Source: Prevotella sp. (lineage in GTDB: Bacteria; Bacteroidota; Bacteroidia; Bacteroidales; Bacteroidaceae). From it: a stretch of DNA of 49,129 nucleotides. The notes beneath the pieces are model-generated. The model worked only from the letters and a program-made list of their open reading frames with translations. It made no database searches and had not been told where the DNA came from. Where the stretch lies: assembly GCA_017619275.1 (NCBI GenBank), contig JAFZSR010000075.1, positions 1 through 49,129 of the forward strand. The letters are read 5' to 3'. The translations under genes were made by a program, and so were the position numbers. Below, in pieces: positions 2,260-24,354 of this stretch; the stretch's first letter is position 1; each line of letters begins with the position of its first letter.

Positions 2260-4092
2260 TTAGAAGCCGATTCTACCCTTCCACTTCATGTACCAGTTTT
2301 GCTGGTTGGTGAGGTCGACCTTGATCTCGCTGCGGGTGGCAGCTTCGTTGCCGGCTCCACCGCGCTTGTAGATCTGGTTGGCCAGGAACTGCCCTGGGTT
2401 GGGCTGGCGCAAAGCGAAGCGCATGATGTCGTAGAAGCGTGTGCCCTCGAAGGCGAACTCAAGTCCGTTCTCGTTGAGGAGCAGACTGTCGACATACTCC
2501 TGCTGCACAGCTACGGGAACAGCCACGTTGACGCTGTCCTGCATGACAGAGTCGGGGAACTGGTAGTACTCGTTCATGGGTGTCCAACCCGAGCCACGGG
2601 TGTGGATGCCAATCATGTTCTGCAGATCGGTAGGACGGGTGATGGCTCCATTGACATCGAGCACAGCATAGCGCACATCGGTGAAATTGAAGCGGCTGAG
2701 GAAGATGGAGTCCGACTCGGTGTTGTAGTAGGGCATGACCTCGCTGGCGATGACCCTGTTGCTGAGTCCCTTCTGCAGGATGAGGAAGGCCATGCGAGGA
2801 TAGCCGGCACCATTGAGGGCCTCGGCCAAGTGGAGATAGACGGTCATGTTGCGCCAGAGGTAGACGTGCTGCGAGTTTTCGCGATACTTCTCGATGCTCT
2901 GTGTGCGCACGCGCTCCTCGGTGTACTGGTCGTAGTTCCATCCTTCGCTCCACACCGACGGCAGACGCAGGTCGCCCGAGCGGTGCTCGTCGAGTCCGGC
3001 AGGAGCGTAGGTGACGCTGGTGCCATCGACGGAAAGGATGGCATTGGCCTGCGACTCTGACAGCTCGAACATGCCATTCGACGGCGTGATGCTCACGCGG
3101 TAGTTGTTTTCGCGGCGCGAGGTGAAGAGGTCGCGCAGCTCGCTATAGCTACCGGCGGCGGCAGTACTTCCGTAGGCAATCATGGTGATGAGCTCGTTGT
3201 TCTCTGTGATAGGATAGAGTCCCGAGAGACGACCACGGAAGAGGTTCTCGCCCGGATCCCAGCTGAGCCTGTCGGTGCTGGTGGGATAGGTGCTGTTGTC
3301 GCCGTTGCGCTCGCTGATGAACTGGAAGTACTGCAGTGCAGCCTGGCGATAGTCCTCCTTGTTGCCGGTGGCGCTGGCACGCCAGAGGTAGAGCTCGGCC
3401 CTGACAAGGCTCAAGGGGAAGAAGAGCTGCTTGGTGTCGCTGACGCCACTGATGTTGGTGATTCCATCGAGCGGGAACTTGTTGTTCAAGTCGGCGCGCA
3501 GGTTGGCAAGGTCGTTGATGAAATAGGTGCACACCTGCTGCAGGTCGGCAATCTGCGAATTCTCGGCCTCCTCGGCAGCCTCGCGGCTGAGCAGCGGCTC
3601 GGTGACGAAAGGCACCTGTCCATAGTTGAGCACCAGCTGCAGATAGGTCCATGCGCGGATGGCCTTCACGGCAGCAAACTCCTCCATGAGCACATACTCG
3701 TTGCGGTTGCGCAGCGACGTGTCGGCATGGGCAATGAAGTAGTTGCAGTTGTTGATGACGGCATAATAGTCGCTGGGGCGGTTGTACTTGTTGTCGTCGC
3801 TAATGCTGAAGGTAGCCAGCTCGCGCAGGTCGTTGTTGGCTTCACCGGTGAGGCTCACCAGGTCGCCGCGCACCTCGCCGAGCAGCACGGTGCGGTCGCC
3901 CAGCTCTTGTAGCTTGGCCAGGATGCCAGCCACGGAGTAGACGGTGTCGACGTTGTTGTTGAGGTGCTCCACGTCGTCGTAGAGCACATCGCTCGACTCC
4001 TGGTTGAAGAAATCCTCGCACGAGGTGAGGGTAGCGGAAATGCCGCAACACACGAGACAGCCACAGAAGAATTTATATGCTTTGGTAATCAT
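2260..4092 (-). CDS. SusD/RagB-family nutrient-binding outer-membrane lipoprotein (pair of 4134-7457)
   Basis: 610 residues. A lipoprotein signal peptide ends in the lipobox LTSC with Cys25, so the mature protein should be lipid-anchored on the cell surface. The fold is recognised from the TPR-like helical N-terminal half (conserved AIRAWTYLQLVLNYGQVPFV) and the C-terminal LEFAFEGTRFYDIMRFALRQ, both typical of SusD/RagB. SusD proteins cap the SusC TonB-dependent channel and capture ligand. Last gene of the seven-gene locus, 41 bases after the SusC gene and followed by a terminator. The ligand is unknown: no neighbouring degradative enzyme gives a hint. Confidence 0.95.
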   Translation of the reverse strand: MITKAYKFFCGCLVCCGISATLTSCEDFFNQESSDVLYDDVEHLNNNVDTVYSVAGILAKLQELGDRTVLLGEVRGDLVSLTGEANNDLRELATFSISDDNKYNRPSDYYAVINNCNYFIAHADTSLRNRNEYVLMEEFAAVKAIRAWTYLQLVLNYGQVPFVTEPLLSREAAEEAENSQIADLQQVCTYFINDLANLRADLNNKFPLDGITNISGVSDTKQLFFPLSLVRAELYLWRASATGNKEDYRQAALQYFQFISERNGDNSTYPTSTDRLSWDPGENLFRGRLSGLYPITENNELITMIAYGSTAAAGSYSELRDLFTSRRENNYRVSITPSNGMFELSESQANAILSVDGTSVTYAPAGLDEHRSGDLRLPSVWSEGWNYDQYTEERVRTQSIEKYRENSQHVYLWRNMTVYLHLAEALNGAGYPRMAFLILQKGLSNRVIASEVMPYYNTESDSIFLSRFNFTDVRYAVLDVNGAITRPTDLQNMIGIHTRGSGWTPMNEYYQFPDSVMQDSVNVAVPVAVQQEYVDSLLLNENGLEFAFEGTRFYDIMRFALRQPNPGQFLANQIYKRGGAGNEAATRSEIKVDLTNQQNWYMKWKGRIGF

Positions 4093-7477: not shown

Positions 7478-9370
7478 TTAACGTTGCATATACCACCATC
7501 TGGTGACGCGGTCGGTGTACTGTCCGTGAGGATAAAGCATCACGCCAGGCGTGCCACGATGGGTGGGCTTGATTTCAGGCAGATCGGGCAGGGCGTCGAC
7601 CAGCTCCAGCGTGCCGTGAGGCACAAGCAGGAAGCAGTTGGCATACACCGTACGGGTGAACATCTTGTTACGCTGCTCGGGACTGGTGACGCGGGTCTCC
7701 ATGCGCAGGAGGATCTGCTTGTCCTCGTCGTCCAAGCCGTATGTGCAAACGGGGAACTTGTAGTCCTCGGCCAGCAACATATAGTACACACTGTCGGGAA
7801 CAGTGGTGAAGACGTCCTTACCATCGGGACCCTTGAGCACCTCGTCCTTCTGTCCGGGAATCTGCAGGGTGAAACGCAACTTGGTGGGAACACGCACATC
7901 GGCAATAGCGTTGCTATCGGCGGCCAACACAGGAGCCACCACCATGTAGATGTCGTAGCCAACATTGGAGAGCACGTCGCGCAGATAGTACAACACCTGA
8001 TGGTTGACGGTGCTGAAGTTGGGGCTATATTCTACAAATACATTGTTCCACAGCTTGTTGTAGAAGCGGCTGTTGTCGCTGTTCACATGATGGGGAATCT
8101 CGGAAACGGTGGGAACTTGGTCGCCATGGCTGTCGGCCATCTTGGAGAGTTCCTTGACGTTGCGAGCGTTGTTCACATCCACACGGATGAACTGGTTGAA
8201 GGTCATGCGCTTGTCGATGTTCCAACGAGTGGCCTTGCGCACCTCGCCATTGCTGCACTGCACAATATCGGTCTGTGCCAGCACGCCAGTAGGCTGCTCC
8301 AACGGCTTGCGATACTGGAAGTACTCAAAGGGCAGTCCGCCCCACTGTGACCTACGGCTGTTGTAGTCGCGAGAGCTACTCTCAGAGGTGCAGGAGTCTT
8401 GCAGCGTCTCGTCGCTGTTGAACGTGCGGCTGAAGGTGGTGCCTCGCATGATGGCCAAGCGCGAGTTGGTGTAGACAAACGAGTCGCGCTTGTCGATGCC
8501 TTCAGGATAGTTGAAGTAAGGCTCGTACTCCTCGATGAGTTCCTTCCACACCTCGTTTGTGGGAGCCACCATGATGTAGGAGCTGTCTTCGGAGTTGAGA
8601 CGGCCCAGATAGGTGAACAGCTCGTTGCGCGTCATGAAGACGGAGTCGAGATACTGTGTCTTACCGTCGACGATGCTGCCCGGCACACTGAGCTCGTCCT
8701 GGAACTCACGATAGTAGAAATGACTATCATAGAGGAATCTGTAGACGCTGTCGAGGTCGGGGTCCTTGCGAAGGTACTCGAACACGCTGGGCAGGTAGCT
8801 CACCTGGTCGGAAACCTTGAACAGGACACCGTTGGTGTAGAGCTGGTTCTTGGTGATGAAGCGGTTGCCGTCGATGCTCTCGTAGTTGAGCAGGGCGTAC
8901 TTACCGTTCATGAGCACGATGGAGTCGCTACCCATTCGTGATACGCTATGGTTGTAGAGTGACACGTGGTTATAGATGAACTCCTTCAGCGCGGTGTTGT
9001 CTTCCTCCACCACTTTCTCGGCCACCTGCTGCTTGTACTCGTCAATCAGGCGCTGCACCTGCTCTTTGGGCAGCTTGTCGTTGGTGGGTGCAAAAACGGT
9101 GAACACCTGACTGCTGTTGAGTGTCTTGTCGAATTCGCAGCCTTTAATAACCTCAGCAAAGTTTTTCAGGTCAGGGTCGTTATTAATGGCCTCCCAGAGT
9201 GTGCCCTCGTGCAGCGTGGCTTCGCCTTCGCCACCGCCCAGGCTCTCGTAGTGGTCATCCCAGGTGTCGGTGCAAGAGACCCCCACCCATCCTCCCCCTG
9301 CGAGGGGGAGGAGTATATAGACGAGGAAGTTGAAGAACTTCTTAGTCTTTATATTTAGGTATTGTTTCAT
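7478..9370 (-). CDS. FAS1 (fasciclin)-domain surface lipoprotein, two modules
   Basis: 630 residues with a lipoprotein signal ending GVSC (Cys33). Two FAS1 modules are suggested by the hallmark strands VFTVFAPTNDKL (near residue 85) and SYIMVAPTNEVWKEL (near 260), each followed by a helical and strand pattern typical of FAS1. Known FAS1 domains mediate adhesion or protein contacts. In Bacteroidetes they accompany some SusCD pairs, probably as accessory surface binding proteins. Residues 20-32 (LLPLAGGGWVGVS), the hydrophobic core of the signal peptide, are encoded by a GC-rich hairpin repeat. 20 bases before the SusC gene; same transcript likely. Confidence 0.85.
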   Translation of the reverse strand: MKQYLNIKTKKFFNFLVYILLPLAGGGWVGVSCTDTWDDHYESLGGGEGEATLHEGTLWEAINNDPDLKNFAEVIKGCEFDKTLNSSQVFTVFAPTNDKLPKEQVQRLIDEYKQQVAEKVVEEDNTALKEFIYNHVSLYNHSVSRMGSDSIVLMNGKYALLNYESIDGNRFITKNQLYTNGVLFKVSDQVSYLPSVFEYLRKDPDLDSVYRFLYDSHFYYREFQDELSVPGSIVDGKTQYLDSVFMTRNELFTYLGRLNSEDSSYIMVAPTNEVWKELIEEYEPYFNYPEGIDKRDSFVYTNSRLAIMRGTTFSRTFNSDETLQDSCTSESSSRDYNSRRSQWGGLPFEYFQYRKPLEQPTGVLAQTDIVQCSNGEVRKATRWNIDKRMTFNQFIRVDVNNARNVKELSKMADSHGDQVPTVSEIPHHVNSDNSRFYNKLWNNVFVEYSPNFSTVNHQVLYYLRDVLSNVGYDIYMVVAPVLAADSNAIADVRVPTKLRFTLQIPGQKDEVLKGPDGKDVFTTVPDSVYYMLLAEDYKFPVCTYGLDDEDKQILLRMETRVTSPEQRNKMFTRTVYANCFLLVPHGTLELVDALPDLPEIKPTHRGTPGVMLYPHGQYTDRVTRWWYMQR

Positions 9371-9446
9371 AAACTATATCAGATTAAAATTGTTGTTTTT
9401 ATTTGTCTGACTTCTCCCCTCCCTCGTGGGAGGGGTTGGGGGTTGG
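9276..9446. repeat. Pair of GC-rich hairpin repeats bracketing the FAS1 gene start
   Basis: One copy (9276-9313, CCTCCCCCTGCGAGGGGGAGG core) lies inside the coding region and encodes signal-peptide residues 20-32. The other (9405-9446, CCCCTCCCTCGTGGGAGGGG core) lies in the 81-bp intergenic gap upstream. The two are in inverted orientation with the start codon (9370) between them. Both carry the GGGG-GTCT / AGAC-CCC signature seen in the large elements at 1950 and 24231. Confidence 0.75.
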
Positions 9447-9451
9447 TTGGC

Positions 9452-11656
9452 TTAGAGGTCGTCCTCCATGGCGCCCTCTTGATCGACACCATAAACGCTC
9501 TTCGGCACCATCTCGAAGTAGTCGAGCATAAATTCGTTATCGTTACCTTGCTTACCATCGCTGGCCACGCGGAAGCGGATGTAGTGATCCTGTGTGGCAT
9601 CGATTCGGGTCTGGCAAAGAATCTTACGGTATGTACCATTGTCGCCCAGGAAGTAGCCCTTACCACCACCGGAACCGAAGTGATAGGTGCTGCGTCCGGC
9701 ACGATAGGCACCGAGGTTCTTCAGCAACTTCTGCTCCTCGGCCTTCTCCTCGTCGGTCTTCTTCAGGTAGTCGTCATAGCTGCACATCTCGTCGCCCAGA
9801 TAGATGGTGGAGTTCAGCTCCTTGGTCATATCGAGGGGGATACCCTGCGGCTTGCCGTCGTAATACACCTGCATGACGCCACGGGTGGGGATGGCGCAGA
9901 ATCCCAGGCGCAACTGCCACTCACCAGTATAAGGCACGGGCGGGATGCGGAAGGTCATGTCGTAGTCGCCAAAGAGGTTCCACTCGTCGCCCTGCCACGA
10001 CCAGAAGTTGCAGTGGGGACGGCGCATCACCAAGTGACAGTTGGGATTGAAGGTGACACCATCGAGATAGCCTAATGGGAAGTAGAAGTTACGTCCGTTG
10101 ACAGGTGTGTTGGAGTCATCGGGATGGTCCTGTGCGTCGTCGACAAGGTAGTTACCCTTCAGACGCATGTCGTTGGTCATCACCTCGGGCCAAACAGTGG
10201 AGAAGTCCATGCGGATACGCATGTTCTGCACAACATTCTGCACGTCATAGCTGAACACCACCAGGTCGTCGACATAGAAGTAGTGTCCGTTAAGGGCATC
10301 GTGGGTCTTATCGACAGTGTTGTCGACCAGGGCGCCACGATAGTTATACTCGGGTGCTGCATAGCGACGGTTGACGAAGTGACGCTGTATGCAGTCGGCA
10401 TCAATGCCGCGGCAGTCGTTGCCTTGCTCGTCCTTGTTCATCGTGAGCTGCTCAATCTTCAACATGGTGTGAGGCAGCAAAGTCTGATACCATTCGCAGG
10501 GATTCACCTTCTTGGAATCGAAGCCGAATGCCTCCTTCGTCACCTTGGGGATGAGGGCCGTGAGGTCGGCAGTGCCGGGCACGTAGCGAGTCATGAAGTG
10601 ATATTGGATGAAGCGCCTCAGCGGGTTGATGCTGTCGGTCAGATGGTCAAAACCCCAACCGGGCTTCTTGCTGTCATCTTCCACAATATCATCATTCCTG
10701 TGGACTCCATATTCGTCGGTTCCGTCGCCATAAACGCCATTATAGAACTTAACGGCCAAGTCGTAAAGCGCTTTCAAATTGCCCTGGGATGTGTCGATAT
10801 TAAACTCCTGGAACTTTGCCAAGAAGACCGAGTCGGTCTCGATAAAGCCGGTGAAACCATATTTCTTGGTGTCGGGCACCCAGGCCACTTCCTTCCACAC
10901 GTGCGACTTGTAGTAGTACTTGGGATAGGCTTTGTTGTCGTAGTCGGGATCGATGAACGGCAGGATCTGCTCCCTCACGCCGGTCTTCACCAGAGCCTCG
11001 TAGAAGATGCTGATGGAGGGGTCGTTGCGCAGAATGTCGGCCACGAAGCTGTTCGATTTCTCAATCACCTTGTCGATGGGCTGCACGATACCGTTCTCCA
11101 CCGAGTCGTTCTGGTGCACTTCCTGTCCATCGTCGAGCAACTTGCTGAAGATGATGCGTGCATTGCCTTCGAGCATGACGACGGCATTGCTGTCGGCGTC
11201 GACGCTCTGCTCAGTGGCGAGGTAGCGGCCCAGCATGTTGGCCGTGGAGAGCACGTCCTGGGTCATGTCGAAGGTGGAGTACATATTGGCCACGAGGTGG
11301 GTGCGTGCGATGGTGTCGCAGTCTTCGAACGAGAGGTCCTCAACCGACTTCAACCCACGCTCTTTGAGGAATTCCTGCATGGCATCGTTGGAAGGCAAGA
11401 AGCATGTGTAGCTGCCGTAGGTCGACAGCAAATCCAACATCTTGGCTTGTCTCACGACGTAATAGAAATCACTGTATTGTGGACGATTGGCCAGATAATC
11501 GCTGAGCATCTCACCCGTGAAGGTATAGAAGTGATCAGTATCCGGCTCGTCGGAGCAGGAGGTGACAAGAAGCCCCCCGCCAACTACCCCGAAGGGGAGA
11601 GCCAACAGCATCAAAGCTTTGGCTGCAAGTGCTTTTATGTTATTCATAACTGTCAT
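9452..11656 (-). CDS. FAS1-domain surface lipoprotein with C-terminal beta-rich domain
   Basis: 734 residues; ATG 11656 or the third-codon-downstream ATG 11647. The lipoprotein signal ends in the lipobox VTSC (Cys34). A clear FAS1 module follows (SYTCFLPSNDAMQEFLKERG; closing strand VENGIVQPIDKVIEKS). A second, weaker FAS1-like stretch follows (about 220-420). The last 280 residues are a beta-rich region with a jelly-roll-like pattern (GEWQLRLGFCAIPTRGVMQV, then YDGKPQGIPLDM). Signal-peptide residues 19-31 are encoded by a repeat hairpin (11564-11601). Likely surface-exposed partner of the adjacent SusCD pairs. Ligand unknown. Confidence 0.82.
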   Translation of the reverse strand: MTVMNNIKALAAKALMLLALPFGVVGGGLLVTSCSDEPDTDHFYTFTGEMLSDYLANRPQYSDFYYVVRQAKMLDLLSTYGSYTCFLPSNDAMQEFLKERGLKSVEDLSFEDCDTIARTHLVANMYSTFDMTQDVLSTANMLGRYLATEQSVDADSNAVVMLEGNARIIFSKLLDDGQEVHQNDSVENGIVQPIDKVIEKSNSFVADILRNDPSISIFYEALVKTGVREQILPFIDPDYDNKAYPKYYYKSHVWKEVAWVPDTKKYGFTGFIETDSVFLAKFQEFNIDTSQGNLKALYDLAVKFYNGVYGDGTDEYGVHRNDDIVEDDSKKPGWGFDHLTDSINPLRRFIQYHFMTRYVPGTADLTALIPKVTKEAFGFDSKKVNPCEWYQTLLPHTMLKIEQLTMNKDEQGNDCRGIDADCIQRHFVNRRYAAPEYNYRGALVDNTVDKTHDALNGHYFYVDDLVVFSYDVQNVVQNMRIRMDFSTVWPEVMTNDMRLKGNYLVDDAQDHPDDSNTPVNGRNFYFPLGYLDGVTFNPNCHLVMRRPHCNFWSWQGDEWNLFGDYDMTFRIPPVPYTGEWQLRLGFCAIPTRGVMQVYYDGKPQGIPLDMTKELNSTIYLGDEMCSYDDYLKKTDEEKAEEQKLLKNLGAYRAGRSTYHFGSGGGKGYFLGDNGTYRKILCQTRIDATQDHYIRFRVASDGKQGNDNEFMLDYFEMVPKSVYGVDQEGAMEDDL

Positions 11657-11723: not shown

Positions 11724-13526
11724 TTATTTTGTCTTCTCGTAGCTGGTGCTCTCACCCGAACCGAAGGCTGGGTTGGGAACCAGATTCTTGTTCACTTTCA
11801 TCTCCTCGAAGTTGTAGGGCCAGAAAATGGCATCCATCTTCTTGAAGAAGTTACCGGCAAAGTCCTTGTTCACATCGTCGCGTCCTTGCACGGCCGACAT
11901 GATGGAATTGGTGTTGCCCTCACGCATGGCATAGCGCACCAGATCGTACCAGCGCTTGCCCTCGTACATCAGCTCGCGACGGCGCTCACGCATCACCAAG
12001 TCATCCATTTGGTTTTTCGTGGTATAATCTGCGCGGTGCAGCGTGTCATCGTTCTGCAGCACAGCCTTGCAGAGTGAGCGCTTGTTGATGGCGTTCACCA
12101 GATTGAAGGCCTTGTCGAGGAGCGGCTCGTTGTAGGCAATCACGGCACTGTCGCTACCTTCGCGCATCTGCTGGCACAGGGCCTCGGCTTCGAGCAGCAT
12201 GATGTCGGGCAAACGGTAGATAATCCACTGGCTGCAATTCTTTCCCTCAGTATAGTAGGAGGTACCATCTTGCTGTGGCTGCGTATCGGTTTGCCTGATG
12301 TTGCTGCCATTAATGGTGATGCGCTGCAGGGCCAGCTTGTAGATGACGCCGTCGACGAAACCATAGTTGTAGTAGATGCGGGCATCGAGGTTCTTGTTCT
12401 TCTCCTCATAGATGTTCTTCACATCCTCCTTCATGTTCTCAGAGGGAGCCAACAGTCCTTTGGGTGTGCGGCTGTCGCCGAAATAGCTGCTGACGGCCGA
12501 GTTCACGGGCTGGTTGGGATTGCTGGTGAGTGAATAGGCATTGGTGTTGTTGCCATAGAACAGCTCGAAAATGGTTTCGCGGCTCATGCCATCGACAAAA
12601 ATCTTCTCGTAGGCGTCGCCGAAGCTGGTTCCCGTGAGGTTGTCGTTCTGCAGGGGATAGCCGTTGGTACGTGCCTTGAGCGTGGCCAGGTTGGTGCCCA
12701 GCTGATTGCGGTTTCCGGGCTTCTGCACCAGCTCCTCAAAGTAGTCGGTCTTCGACTTGATGACTTCCTCGGCATACTTGATGCAGTTGTTGTAGTCCTT
12801 CTTCCAAAGATACATCTCGCAGAGCATGGCTCGAATGGCATCCTTGGTGATGCGTCCAGTCTGCAGGCGCGGGTCGGTCTCGGGATAGCGGCTCACGGCA
12901 TCATTCTTCACTTTCTCCAGGTCGAGGATAAGACTGTCGAGCACATCCTCGAAGGGCGTGGCGGGCAGGTCCATCTTCTGGTCGTCGTCGGTGAAGGCCA
13001 CGGATGAATAAGGCACATCGCGGAACGTGCGGATGAGGTAGAAATAGCACAGGTCGCGCAGTGCCGACACCTCAGCAATGGTGGCGCGCAAATCGCCTTG
13101 GGTATAGCTGGGGTCTACGGCAGCGACGCCGGGTGCATACTTGATGACGGTGTTGCAACGATTGATGACATCGTAGAACTTGTCCCAAGTGGTAAAGTCG
13201 TTCTTTGCGGTGATATTCTCGCGCAGCACGTTGTAGAGGTTAGCGTCGGTGTTGGCATTGGGTCCCGAGACCACGTTGTCGCTTCGCACCTCGCCCCACA
13301 CCATCATTCGCTTGCGCACATCGGCATTCTGAAGCATGTTGTAGCAACCGTTGACGATGTTCTCGACGTCGGTCTTCTCGTTCCAGAAGTCCTCCAGGAT
13401 CACTTGGTCCTGAGGTTTGATTTCAAGGAAGTCGCCACAAGAGCTCAGCATCGTGAGGGCAGCCACCATGCCGCAGCACAGCGACCCAGCCCCATATATT
13501 TTATTGATAGTCGTCATATTCTTCAT
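11724..13526 (-). CDS. SusD/RagB-family outer-membrane lipoprotein (pair of 13554-16922)
   Basis: 600 residues; start ATG 13526 or 13517. The signal peptide ends MLSSC (Cys30), directly followed by GDFLEIKPQDQV, a very typical SusD mature N-terminus. Other family blocks are SALRDLCYFYLIRTFRDVPY (helical core) and the C-terminal RRRELMYEGKRWYDLVRYAM. It should form the lid of the SusC channel encoded 27 bases upstream. Sequence similarity to the other SusD here (2260) is low by eye, so the two pairs probably bind different ligands or different parts of one ligand. Confidence 0.95.
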   Translation of the reverse strand: MKNMTTINKIYGAGSLCCGMVAALTMLSSCGDFLEIKPQDQVILEDFWNEKTDVENIVNGCYNMLQNADVRKRMMVWGEVRSDNVVSGPNANTDANLYNVLRENITAKNDFTTWDKFYDVINRCNTVIKYAPGVAAVDPSYTQGDLRATIAEVSALRDLCYFYLIRTFRDVPYSSVAFTDDDQKMDLPATPFEDVLDSLILDLEKVKNDAVSRYPETDPRLQTGRITKDAIRAMLCEMYLWKKDYNNCIKYAEEVIKSKTDYFEELVQKPGNRNQLGTNLATLKARTNGYPLQNDNLTGTSFGDAYEKIFVDGMSRETIFELFYGNNTNAYSLTSNPNQPVNSAVSSYFGDSRTPKGLLAPSENMKEDVKNIYEEKNKNLDARIYYNYGFVDGVIYKLALQRITINGSNIRQTDTQPQQDGTSYYTEGKNCSQWIIYRLPDIMLLEAEALCQQMREGSDSAVIAYNEPLLDKAFNLVNAINKRSLCKAVLQNDDTLHRADYTTKNQMDDLVMRERRRELMYEGKRWYDLVRYAMREGNTNSIMSAVQGRDDVNKDFAGNFFKKMDAIFWPYNFEEMKVNKNLVPNPAFGSGESTSYEKTK

Positions 13527-20121: not shown

Positions 20122-23100
20122 TTACTTCGTAATCTTCTTCATCATCACGGTGCCATTCTCCAAGGTCATCTTCTGGATCAAGATGCCCTTCTCCAGACCA
20201 GTGGCCTTGCGTCCGTCGAGTGTGAAGTACTCCACGGTGAAGCGCAGAGTTCCTGCGGCCTCATTGATGCTGGAGGGATCGCCTGTAGGCTCGAGCGAGC
20301 TGTTGGCTCCATGATAGAACAGGCGGAAGTTGTCCATGACAATCCAGTCGGCGCTGGCAGTCTCATCCTTGCGGATACCGATGCGGAGCTTATTGTCAAC
20401 AACCTTACACACAACCTCGTTCACGTATGTGTACTCGTCGAACATCTCGGCAGCAGCAATCAGCGAGCTGGGAGCTTCGTAGCCTTCGGGCAGACCGTCG
20501 GCCTGTGTGATGAGTTCCTTTCCGAAGGTCTGGCCACCCGACTCAGCATAGAGATAGGTGGGAGAAGCAGTGCGCTCCCAAGCGTTCACCTTCAAGGTAT
20601 AGGTTCCGTCGGGCAGACCCACGATGTCCTGATAGATGTGGAAAACACTCTCCCACGACTCCAGTGCAAGTGCGCTCAGCTGGTCGCTGTTACCAAACTT
20701 CTGACCGGTGGCCACCCAGCCGTCGATGCTGTTGGTGCCGTCCTTTTCGAAGCTCGGGGTCTGGATAATAGCGGTCACCTCGACAGGATTCTCGTCGGTA
20801 GCCTCCATCACGTTGGCAGGCAGGAGGAGCTTCGTCCTTGCAGCTTCAATCTTCTCGAAGAGTGCCTCGGCCTCTGCGTCGGTGAAGCTGTGTGAGTCAA
20901 TACCGTCAAGAATGGTGATGATGAGCGTCTTGGCCTCTTGGATGGCGGCCTCGTTGTCGGAATCATAGATGCTCTCCTGCAGTCCCTCGACAGCTTTCTC
21001 CAGACGTGTGAAGAGAGCCACAGAAGTGTTGATAGCTTCGCTCAGGTCATAGATGTCGGAGAGTGCTTCGAACATCTTCACGCCGTCTTCAGCAGCGATG
21101 GCTTCCTCGGCAGCAGCCTTCACGGCAACGGCACGCTCATAAACGTCCTTGCCCATAGGCAGATTCAGGTCGATCTTGGCCAGTTCCTCTTCGAGGACGG
21201 GCTTCACCAGTTCAGCTGTTGGCTCACGGTAGGTGAGTTTGAAGTTATCCCAGATGCACCACCAATCCTGGTCGGCGTCCATCTTCACGCCAATGCGGAA
21301 GGTGTCACCCTCCTTGGCAATGAGTCCATAGGCCTGCTTCTTGTACATGCCCCACTTGAAGCAGAGGCTGGCAGCACCCATAGAGTTGGGATAGTTTTCA
21401 ACGGCACCAGTCCAGGAATGGCCTTCCACCACGGGCAGCGAGCCATCTTCGAGGAAGTGCGAAGGATCGATAGCCTCGTCATAGACGCTGGGGAACGAAG
21501 TCTGAGCAGCGTTCATGTAGAGATAGACGGGTGAGGGGAAGTCGGGATCGATGGGATCGCCCTGGGTGTAGCCGCCAACCTCGCAGCGCACATAGCCCTG
21601 CACCTGCAGCTCGTACATTCCCACGGGCAGGTTTTTCACCTCCTGCCAAACGTCCCACTTGTGGCAGTGCCACGACTCGAAGCAGAAGTTCTTTTCACCC
21701 AAAGCGTTGATCATGATGTTCTGGTTGCTCTCTCCAAGAGGTCCGCGCACTACGTTACCACCACTGATGCGATCGATGGTCCAACCCTCGGCTGCGCCAG
21801 AGTTGATATCCTTATCGTCGTCGAAGCCTGGGTTGGCGATGTACTTGGTATAGTCCTTGCCATCCCATACATCGAGCTTCGACTTCTCAATGATGGCGTT
21901 GATCCATTCGTTCAGCTGTGCGATGGCAGCTTCCAGCTCCTCGTTGGTCAGCTCCAGTGCGTCGAGGATGTCGGACGACTCCATGTCGATATAGTCCATC
22001 ATGTCGTACAAATCTTCGATGCCATCATATTCAGGATCCACAGCCATTTGGGTACCCTTCACGAGTAGTGCCTGATAGTCTTTCCAGAGTTCGATGTTCT
22101 TCATCAGGTCGTTGTAGCTCTGGTCGATGGCGCTCATGATGGCGTTCACCTCTGCCAGGTTGTTGGCGGTCTTTTCGCCAGCGATGGCCTCGCGATAAGC
22201 AGTGAGATAGGCCTCGGTGTAGAGTGTGCCCTCCTCGGGTGTGTAGTCGCTGAAGTTCTTCAGGGCCTCTGCCAGATAGAGGTTGCAAGCGTCGGCACCC
22301 TCTCCGTAGAAGGTCAGCGAGAAGTCGTCGAACATTGACCAGTCGGCATCAATCAACGAAGACTTCTTCACACCAATAGTCAACTCACCAGCCTCGTCAA
22401 CAGCCACATACAGCTTGTTGGCATAGAGATGGAGATTGTGGAAGAAGTGATCGGCAGCTGCCATGGTGTTGGGCACATAAACGGTGACGGACTCGCCATT
22501 CTCATCTTGGTAGGTCACGGACACGTCGCCCACGCCCTGAGCTTCAGCTTGTCCACCAATCATCACGTTAACGATGGGAACCTGATTCTCAACAGCATTC
22601 TCACCAGCCTTGGCATAGAACTTGGCAAAGCGAGAAGCATCATTCTGGGCCAGCCAGTTTGTAATTGCAAGACCAGTGCCACCATCGTAGTTACCTGAAC
22701 GGTAATAACCATTCACGCCAACAGCATAGATACCAGGAGTAAGACCTGTAATCGTCTGATAGGTGTCGTAAGTCTTGCTGTAGTGCTCTGCACCGTCAGA
22801 AACCGTGCCGCCACGACCGAAGGCTGTACCACTCCAACCAGTGGTGCAATCGGCGTTGTCAAAATGAGGATTGACAATCTTAGCAGTCAGGTCGATAGGA
22901 TTCTCCACAGAGGCCTGGTTTGAAGCCCACTCCACATATGCGTTCTCAAGGTCGGTCAGAGCCTGCTCCACCTCGGCCAGCGTGGCCTGCGGATTGGTGA
23001 GCACAGCCTTGGCATCAGCAGTGGCAGTGAAGCCCTTTGACTCGTAATCCTCGATAGCATCCTTCAGCTTCTGCTTGGCGGTGATCAGCGGAGTCAGGTC

Positions 23101-23910
23101 GTTGGCGGCCTGGGTCAGCTGTTCAGCGGTGCTTGCGGTGTTGTTGTACACAGCCAGAGCTGCTGTCACGTCGATATACAAAGCCTCGGCTTTTTCAATG
23201 GTCTCTTTCAGAACGCATGCAGCGATGTAGGCCTTGGCACCGTTTTCGTAAGCAGCAAAAGCAGCCTCATCGGCTACAAAAGCCTCGTAGGAGTCAACGG
23301 TCACAGCCTTCCAGTCCACGCCGGCGCCCTCAGCAGAAGGAGACACATGCCTCAACACGCTGGTGTAGGCATCCAGGTTGCCAGCGCCAGTGCCGGAAAT
23401 CTCGGTGATGTTGAAAGAACCTGTGAATCCCAGATATGTGCCTGCATAATCAGGTTTGTCGGCGATAAAGGCCACATTCTGGAAACGGACGCAGTCGCCC
23501 ACAATCTCGTAAGCCCACGAGTAGTTGCCCTGTGTGCCATGATCAACCCATGAGGAGTTGCCGTCGTCGGTAAAGACGTTGCCATTACCGGTCGAACGCT
23601 CAGGGTTGAGGTTCTCATCCCACAGCTCGTACGAGCCATCGGGTGCATCTTCCTCAGTAGCTGGCTCGAGCCAGACCTGAATACCAAAGGTTCTGACACT
23701 GGCCTGTGTCCCCCAGTTGTTACCAGCCGAGAAGAACATCTTGGCAGCGGTGTTGTAGAGGTAGTAGTGTTCGCCGTCGTCTGTAAACGTCGTGAACTCC
23801 AGTCCCTGCGGCTCTGGCATTGTCCATACGCCATCGGGTACCTCTGCCCTCGCACCATTAGCCGCAAAGGCGAACAGTGCGCTCAAAACGAGTAGTTTTT
23901 TAAATTTCAT
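20122..23910 (-). CDS. Large secreted modular protein with carbohydrate-binding-like domains
   Basis: 1262 residues from ATG 23910, chosen because it begins a clean signal peptide (KKLLVLSALFAFAANGARA). The frame stays open upstream but without a better start. An N-terminal beta-rich domain (about 25-190, YYLYNTAAKMFFSAGNNWG) is followed by helical spacer repeats of FIVAR type (TAEQLTQAANDLTPLITAKQ). Three beta-sandwich modules open with N-P-x-F and G-W: IVNPHFDN, IANPGFDDD and IIQTPSFEKDG. Spacer helices lie between them. The C-terminus, FTLDGRKATGLEKGI and on, resembles a short sorting tail. No catalytic motif was recognised. Probably a cell-surface or secreted glycan-binding protein. Own promoter and terminator. 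Confidence 0.75.
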   Translation of the reverse strand: MKFKKLLVLSALFAFAANGARAEVPDGVWTMPEPQGLEFTTFTDDGEHYYLYNTAAKMFFSAGNNWGTQASVRTFGIQVWLEPATEEDAPDGSYELWDENLNPERSTGNGNVFTDDGNSSWVDHGTQGNYSWAYEIVGDCVRFQNVAFIADKPDYAGTYLGFTGSFNITEISGTGAGNLDAYTSVLRHVSPSAEGAGVDWKAVTVDSYEAFVADEAAFAAYENGAKAYIAACVLKETIEKAEALYIDVTAALAVYNNTASTAEQLTQAANDLTPLITAKQKLKDAIEDYESKGFTATADAKAVLTNPQATLAEVEQALTDLENAYVEWASNQASVENPIDLTAKIVNPHFDNADCTTGWSGTAFGRGGTVSDGAEHYSKTYDTYQTITGLTPGIYAVGVNGYYRSGNYDGGTGLAITNWLAQNDASRFAKFYAKAGENAVENQVPIVNVMIGGQAEAQGVGDVSVTYQDENGESVTVYVPNTMAAADHFFHNLHLYANKLYVAVDEAGELTIGVKKSSLIDADWSMFDDFSLTFYGEGADACNLYLAEALKNFSDYTPEEGTLYTEAYLTAYREAIAGEKTANNLAEVNAIMSAIDQSYNDLMKNIELWKDYQALLVKGTQMAVDPEYDGIEDLYDMMDYIDMESSDILDALELTNEELEAAIAQLNEWINAIIEKSKLDVWDGKDYTKYIANPGFDDDKDINSGAAEGWTIDRISGGNVVRGPLGESNQNIMINALGEKNFCFESWHCHKWDVWQEVKNLPVGMYELQVQGYVRCEVGGYTQGDPIDPDFPSPVYLYMNAAQTSFPSVYDEAIDPSHFLEDGSLPVVEGHSWTGAVENYPNSMGAASLCFKWGMYKKQAYGLIAKEGDTFRIGVKMDADQDWWCIWDNFKLTYREPTAELVKPVLEEELAKIDLNLPMGKDVYERAVAVKAAAEEAIAAEDGVKMFEALSDIYDLSEAINTSVALFTRLEKAVEGLQESIYDSDNEAAIQEAKTLIITILDGIDSHSFTDAEAEALFEKIEAARTKLLLPANVMEATDENPVEVTAIIQTPSFEKDGTNSIDGWVATGQKFGNSDQLSALALESWESVFHIYQDIVGLPDGTYTLKVNAWERTASPTYLYAESGGQTFGKELITQADGLPEGYEAPSSLIAAAEMFDEYTYVNEVVCKVVDNKLRIGIRKDETASADWIVMDNFRLFYHGANSSLEPTGDPSSINEAAGTLRFTVEYFTLDGRKATGLEKGILIQKMTLENGTVMMKKITK

Positions 23911-24230: not shown

Positions 24231-24354
24231 TGCGCAGCCACTCCCCTCCCCTCAAGGGGAGGGGCTAGGGGTGGGGTCTCTAAATCCCTGCGAATGAATA
24301 ATATACAGACCCCACCCCTGCCCCTCCCCTTGAAGGGAGGGGAGTGGCTGCGCA
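24231..24354. repeat. Second copy of the MITE-like GC-rich inverted-repeat element
   Basis: 124 bp with terminal inverted repeats TGCGCAGCCACTCCCCTCCC and complement at 24335-24354. The interior, including GGGTGGGGTCTCTAAATCC and the AATGAATAATATACAGACCC junction, matches the element at 1950-2103 closely. Both halves fold into secondary hairpins. It lies between two minus-strand transcription units. Confidence 0.85.

Follow-up and report, generated by a model that had tools for sequence, protein, structure and literature searches.

Two inverted copies of a C-rich hairpin repeat enclose the 5' end of a lipoprotein gene in the genome of a gut Prevotella sp., and one of the two copies is translated as the predicted core of the signal peptide of that lipoprotein. 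The gene (positions 7478..9370, reverse strand) encodes a FAS1-domain lipoprotein of 630 amino acids and lies in the window, i.e., the whole stretch of 49,129 nucleotides that was analysed; this stretch lies in contig C97 of a 3.59-Mb, 127-contig assembly that is 85% complete. The feature (9275..9446) is probably a REPIN-like element, and repeats of this sort would have supplied signal peptides repeatedly, either through the mobility of the repeat or through recombination between leaders.

The open reading frame carries a single Fasciclin domain (Pfam, E=1.3e-7; the match begins at residue 67) and has relatives in 23 of 100 genomes, the nearest of which in named records come from assemblies, most of them metagenomic, of Prevotella, Prevotellaceae, and Bacteroidaceae. 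Its neighbours on the same strand are a second FAS1 gene, a SusD gene, and a gene for a protein with a TonB-receptor plug domain. Genes and signal peptides were called with home-made scripts and not with SignalP. The right arm of the pair (9275..9322, reverse strand) is a unit of 48 nt, GTC TAT ATA CTC CTC CCC CTC GCA GGG GGA GGA TGG GTG GGG GTC TCT, whose extent was taken from comparison with other copies. It forms codons 17-32, translated as VYILLPLAGGGWVGVS, and the codon TGC of the lipobox Cys33 (9272-9274, reverse strand) follows directly. A sequence-only reading of this DNA had assigned residues 20-32 to the repeat, which holds for the hydrophobic core up to Cys33 but falls short of the full arm. 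The spacer between the arms (9323..9404, reverse strand) comprises the end of the 5' UTR, the start codon ATG (9368-9370, reverse strand), and a lysine-rich n-region (residues 1-16). The left, inverted arm (9405..9446, reverse strand) was found where that reading had placed a second copy, just upstream of the start codon; its hairpin (9415-9436) lies between genes and ends 44 nt upstream of the ATG.

The leader of the protein, MKQYLNIKTKKFFNFLVYILLPLAGGGWVGVSC, has the basic n-region, the hydrophobic core, and the lipobox Cys of a type II signal peptide. The residue at position -3 of the lipobox is G (G-V-S-C); a strict lipobox has an L/V/I-type residue at this position, and the motif is laxer in Bacteroidota. 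Only one of the six reading frames of the right arm is clearly hydrophobic (best 10-residue mean 1.82; other frames <=0.77). The best 10-residue hydropathy of the N-terminus is 2.56 with the arm, which is the 21st value from below among 48 lipoproteins of the same genome (median 2.66), and removal of the repeat leaves no hydrophobic core (0.54). A true start downstream of the repeat had been named in advance as evidence against a translated repeat; the first in-frame Met after the start is residue 146, beyond the beginning of the FAS1 match, so that a downstream start would cost the protein its signal peptide, the Cys, and a part of the domain. Judged by hydropathy, by the position of the lipobox, and by the context of the orthologue, the arm presumably works as a secretion signal.

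The hairpin which had been noticed inside the gene is confirmed at 9290..9312 and belongs to a dispersed family. A crude hairpin pattern has 13 matches in the window against 1.64 expected, and none of 100 shuffles had as many. Genome-wide, the pattern matches 83 times on the forward and 84 times on the reverse strand, and a reversed control 3 and 2 times, the copies being counted on both strands because the motif is palindromic. In the first 449-kb sample, eight of 11 copies of the family lie inside called genes and three are intergenic, with none in a signal peptide. The inner flanks GGGGAGTAGATAG and GTCTATATA are common to hairpin pairs inside ordinary coding regions (loci L099 and L107, with variants in L091 and L280), and the right inner flank is also found in an intergenic arm (L331). 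These pairs (L099 5640-5790, L107 5090-5230, L091 13690-13840, and L280 1640-1830, all of the same genome) are situated inside long coding regions and read ...PLPxGRGxDSSAVxxTNGKSIYxPP-type, in a frame that differs from the signal-peptide frame. Another copy of the hairpin occurs at about 1501-1519 of L024 (C21:16718 of the same genome) in a conserved gene (EVTLLGQNVNSYQTHSGEGSGVGFPQ), presumably MiaB-like.

The closest orthologue found in 100 genomes, that of genome G059, is 83% identical over residues 31-630 and stands in the same gene order. The aligned pieces cover most of window positions 2260-28562, the larger ones with 87-90% identity and two with 78%. The alignment breaks off at 9447, which is five bases beyond the upstream stop codon, and sets in again at 9274 in the Cys codon; what lacks homology in the syntenic genome is therefore precisely the whole inverted pair plus leader (9275..9446). 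In its place, G059 has unrelated DNA encoding another signal peptide, MKNPIKICGHTKATMVIGYCLLVIGFTAC; this orthologue without the repeat, the kind of comparison which the sequence-only reading had proposed as a check, does not keep the residues of the arm. The alignment has further breaks (e.g., 10643-10803, 20306-20599, and 23060-23844), so that what distinguishes this one is not the break itself but its exact coincidence with the element. The signal peptide of G059 sits on a period-7 array, and this GGTTATT array is not clearly dispersed there (12 matches in G059 vs 15 for the control). For the FAS1 gene next to the focal one (9452-11656), a repeat-made signal peptide was rejected, as none of 385 intergenic stretches of the focal genome matched the DNA that encodes it and G059 keeps a similar signal peptide.

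The arm recurs across the genus at the level of DNA. Its pattern TATATACTCCTCCCCCTNNNNGGGGGAGGNTGG, scanned with up to 3 mismatches in 299 genus genomes, matches 40 places in 22 genomes, and the reversed control gave 0 in each; viral contigs contained no match to an exact pattern. According to the home-made calls, 39 of the 40 places are signal-peptide cores, the one exception (contig C95 of the focal genome) lying inside a long open frame in a different reading frame. All 30 loci that were fetched read YILLPLxGGGWVGVSC-type signal peptides, with the Cys a few residues further on in some, and the other ten places include nine signal peptides (five in G112 and four in G169, the arm-rich genomes with seven places each). 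Pfam scans of 20 of the 30 proteins returned SusD, Fasciclin, FKBP_C, SusE/SusF, and TIG, the SusD matches of L244 and L249 falling below the Pfam cut-off. For example, a SusE/F-type lipoprotein of the focal genome (C126:59130) carries the arm.

Across 100 genomes, a peptide profile built from 22 DNA-found copies had 21 matches, in 11 of the genomes. As 17 of these were known from the DNA pattern, peptides that look alike but choose their codons freely are few. Codons were read in 20 matches (one weak match was left out, and the set depends in part on the DNA pattern): the rare codons ATA and GGG are kept for 13/13 Ile (genome use 0.09) and for 18/20 and 17/19 Gly (genome use 0.08), and GTC encodes 15/15 Val (genome use 0.23). 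Conserved codons in unrelated genes imply identity of the DNA and not convergence on a peptide, and the same arm with the same rare codons in unrelated lipoproteins supports the earlier proposal that the repeat forms the predicted signal-peptide core. In the own-genome sample, a single intergenic stretch out of 385 matches the arm at E<=1e-3; the arm variant is thus hardly found outside signal peptides, and within the hairpin family it can at best be a specialised branch.

Upstream of the start, at a distance of up to 160 nt, 32 of the 38 distinct cassettes carry a hairpin of the same type, which ends a median of 41 nt before the start; the other six have none there. The same search gave 1/55 lipoproteins and 13/540 genes of the own-genome sample, and 11/802 windows from 30 cassette loci. 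By script, 12 of the 32 upstream hairpins are inverted, 20 are undecided, and none is direct; by eye, the C-rich outer tail (GACCCACCCCC-type) is on the left in all except L240 and L256. The n-region of the focal spacer resembles those of unrelated lipoproteins with the same arm. Among unrelated non-FKBP families, the n-regions have a mean identity of 0.50 over 159 cross-family pairs vs 0.30 in the control, and half of the pairs exceed the 99th percentile of the control, so that leaders seem to have been copied as wholes. FKBP cassettes have an n-region of their own, with a mean identity of 0.39 to the others. The hairpin pair may move about as a leader cassette.

Little beyond a hydrophobic core is required of a signal peptide, and a repeat with one open, hydrophobic frame could replace one at little cost. 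The right arm, in its one hydrophobic frame of six, would provide the h-region together with the residues that directly precede the lipobox Cys, and the spacer between the two inverted C-rich repeats, which holds the 5' end of the gene, would supply the start codon and the basic n-region. Once formed, the leader and the repeat would be copied together to further lipoprotein genes. The arm would have arisen from the repeat rather than the reverse, and its spread would be owed to repeat mobility or to recombination between leaders. A bolder form of this proposal is less likely than not: a mobile hairpin pair would carry a complete secretion leader (5' UTR end, start codon, n-region, hydrophobic core, and pre-Cys residues) that turns any downstream sequence into a lipoprotein, and a second repeat, a heptamer array plus an S-P-A-G-A hairpin, would do likewise for Sec signal peptides. 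If so, signal peptides would offer selfish DNA a niche where being translated is favoured by selection.

The near confinement of the arm variant to signal peptides (39/40) and the likeness of n-regions across unrelated families (0.50 vs 0.30), with whole leaders seemingly copied, would also be expected if lipoprotein genes passed the leader to one another only via gene conversion or homologous recombination, with hairpins that are incidental or act as crossover sites and with no mobility of the repeat. This account deserves serious consideration while falling short of being the probable one, as the hairpin family is found with the same inner flanks, in pairs, inside unrelated coding regions and between genes, a hairpin also lies outside the gene in 32/38 leaders, and FKBP leaders bear the arm with a different n-region (0.39).

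It is improbable that the hairpin is kept for an RNA function, in which the inverted arms would give the mRNA a folded 5' end that regulates the translation of lipoprotein genes, and the structure would constrain the signal peptide. The region folds at -66.1 kcal/mol (z=-4.85; 0/200 shuffles as good), a fold strong enough to make an effect on translation possible, and among the copies the stems are kept and the loops vary. Yet no Rfam family reached its threshold in 9000-9700, the better of two weak matches being a microRNA family (23.7 bits vs a cut-off of 70) over the long inverted repeat; moreover, the upstream hairpin is absent from 6/38 cassettes, and orthologues do without the hairpin. 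Random hydrophobic stretches can act as signal peptides, and GC-rich DNA with a hydrophobic run might by chance resemble a repeat. The rare codons kept across unrelated genes, the absence of reversed-pattern matches in 299 genomes, and the rate at which recoded peptides match intergenic DNA (1/2180) make such a coincidence hardly tenable for the arm, though it could still hold for the neighbouring gene at 9452-11656.

Repeats other than the arm are also found as signal peptides. FKBP matches are present in 98 of 100 genomes, and 12 of the best 30 FKBP loci have a repeat-type signal peptide of one of five kinds, namely the arm, another hairpin, and TTCACTA, TTTTACC, and GTTGTC arrays. The TTCACTA array is dispersed in G031 (173 matches vs 41 for the control), and dispersal is also seen for the GTTGTC array, which matches 4/385 intergenic stretches of the focal genome; the TTTTACC array matches 0/385 of these, but it stems from another genome. 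Translated TTCAACGTTCAACG-type arrays (FNVQR, TVQR) were noticed in the focal genome at about 7556 of L323, 14602 of L096, and 12408 of L331, two of the three being followed directly by segments such as YNLQGQRV and YTLSGVRL.

Signal-peptide classes, which were assigned by eye on both trees, turn over almost as freely as shuffled labels, being hardly more clustered. On a tree of 32 mature FKBP sequences with six classes (L231 and L236 were added because they bear the arm, and three duplicates were dropped), there are 12 changes, against a minimum of 5 and a shuffled mean of 13.3, with values as low in 33/200 shuffles. On the FAS1 tree of 30 rows, which includes paralogues and has L279 as a long branch, the 10 changes compare with a minimum of 4 and a shuffled mean of 10.4 (as low in 95/200). 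The sister pairs L031/L032 and L058/L060 differ in class. The arm is present in three of the five rows of the focal FAS1 clade and may therefore be ancestral, its loss in G059 being as possible as its gain in the focal genome.

A sample test covered 40 tiles (800 kb) of the focal genome, excluding the window, with a match cut-off of 36.3 bits. Signal-peptide windows matched intergenic DNA elsewhere in 8/109 cases vs 19/3653 for internal coding windows (p=5e-7), and the other controls gave 4/427 for other N-termini (one of the four, L324, being a missed signal peptide), 1/240 for internal membrane segments, and 1/2180 for recoded peptides. Of the eight matches, two extend across ATGAAGAAA/ATGAAAAAA-type starts, and their targets may be uncalled genes. 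At the strictest score of 48 bits there is no clear enrichment (1/109 vs 12/3653), because hairpin repeats also sit inside ordinary proteins.

A parallel case is given by a second repeat, TTTATCATTTGTCATTTATCATTT, for which 46+38 matches with at most 3 mismatches were counted in the focal genome and none for the control. Its 43 distinct loci there comprise 27 signal peptides and 16 intergenic sites, with none internal; the 27, of which at least two (L180 and L183) are doubtful, replace an early heptamer count of 14 N-terminal among 44 loci and include loci first classed as intergenic that pass a rule of open frame and codon score. These signal peptides are LSFIICHLSF-type and end in, e.g., SPAGAQ, SSAAAQ, or VALTSC. 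Behind the array, 24 of the 43 loci have a GC-rich hairpin; where this hairpin is AGCCCCGCAGGGGCG, it reads S-P-A-G-A, an AxA-type cleavage site. In 28 stretches of other genomes, the second repeat has 31 loci, of which 21 are signal peptides and eight are intergenic; one of the other two is inside a gene in a hydrophobic stretch, and one is at the start of a called gene.

Several known systems resemble this arrangement in part. REP and REPIN elements are short, dispersed, GC-rich palindromes, often in inverted pairs and with some copies within ORFs, and many of the N-terminal copies may be extragenic ones with misannotated starts (PMC3733652, BMC Genomics 2013). The focal family is likewise a short dispersed palindrome with a conserved flanking tail (TTGGGGGTGGG-type), and the focal pair has the two inverted REPs and short spacer of a REPIN. 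REPs are by definition mostly extragenic, whereas eight of 11 copies here are in called genes and 39 of 40 arm variants in signal peptides; unlike in the REP/REPIN account (PMC3733652), the N-terminal arm here makes up a signal-peptide core that ends before the lipobox Cys. One report, in its main text, gives REP counts with no mention of Prevotella or lipoproteins (PMC12306157). Rickettsia palindromic elements are translated in frame in unrelated proteins (19 reading frames) and are described as inserts with a neutral or slightly detrimental effect (PMC2229807), whereas the repeat here makes a predicted targeting signal. Orthologues of Enterobacterales differ by the insertion or deletion of whole signal peptides, and an ISEScan search near their N-termini found no transposable elements (PMC5952966, Genome Biol Evol 2018); here, short repeats are a visible source of signal peptides. 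The predicted MITE-made signal peptides of Yersinia, where RU-2 partly forms that of, e.g., YPO1552, are a precedent (Delihas 2007, PMC2759123, PMC2229807). The Yersinia case as described concerns few loci and predictions, with no repeat pair spanning the start codon, whereas the use seen here, also predicted, recurs over a genus and involves several repeat families. In the open-access literature searched, which leaves most subscription journals outside its scope, no report of REPIN-made signal peptides or of repeat-made ones in Prevotella was found, nor any precedent for one genus drawing repeatedly on several repeats as signal peptides or for a hairpin pair around the start codon.

A further difference from REP/REPIN systems is that a cognate RAYT flanked by the C-rich hairpin was not found in the focal assembly, which at 85% completeness may lack it. 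A Y1 subclass with atypical structures, mostly of Bacteroidetes, has been described (PMC6006769). The focal genome has one Y1_Tnp match, a RAYT-like gene on contig C62 (L287 967-2033; REP_Tyr_transpos 75 bits vs a cut-off of 80). It was rejected as a proven mobiliser, as a different hairpin family (GGTCGGATTGCAAATCCGCCC / GGCTGGATTTGCAATCCAGCC) flanks it; its 3.2-kb locus contains no hairpin of the C-rich family, and the flanks carry GGATTTGCAAATCC-type hairpins.

As plain and repeat-made signal peptides occur side by side in relatives, it is directly testable whether dispersed repeats feed the export machinery. The same holds for changes in the surface-protein repertoires of gut Bacteroidota by leader swapping, and the annotation of start codons and signal peptides in such genomes has to reckon with translated repeats. 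SusD and FAS1 lipoproteins (window 2263-4092 and 11727-13526; L033, L036, and L103) share a MITKINK..G.LCCGIA.ALTAC-type signal peptide, which is perhaps another copied leader. A further hairpin family, CGCAGCCACTCCCC...GGGGTGGGGTCTCTAAA, occurs as inverted pairs about 80 bp apart at 1983-2002 and 2059-2082 and at 24240-24262 and 24320-24343 of the window, and several of its copies lie less than a few hundred bases from contig ends.
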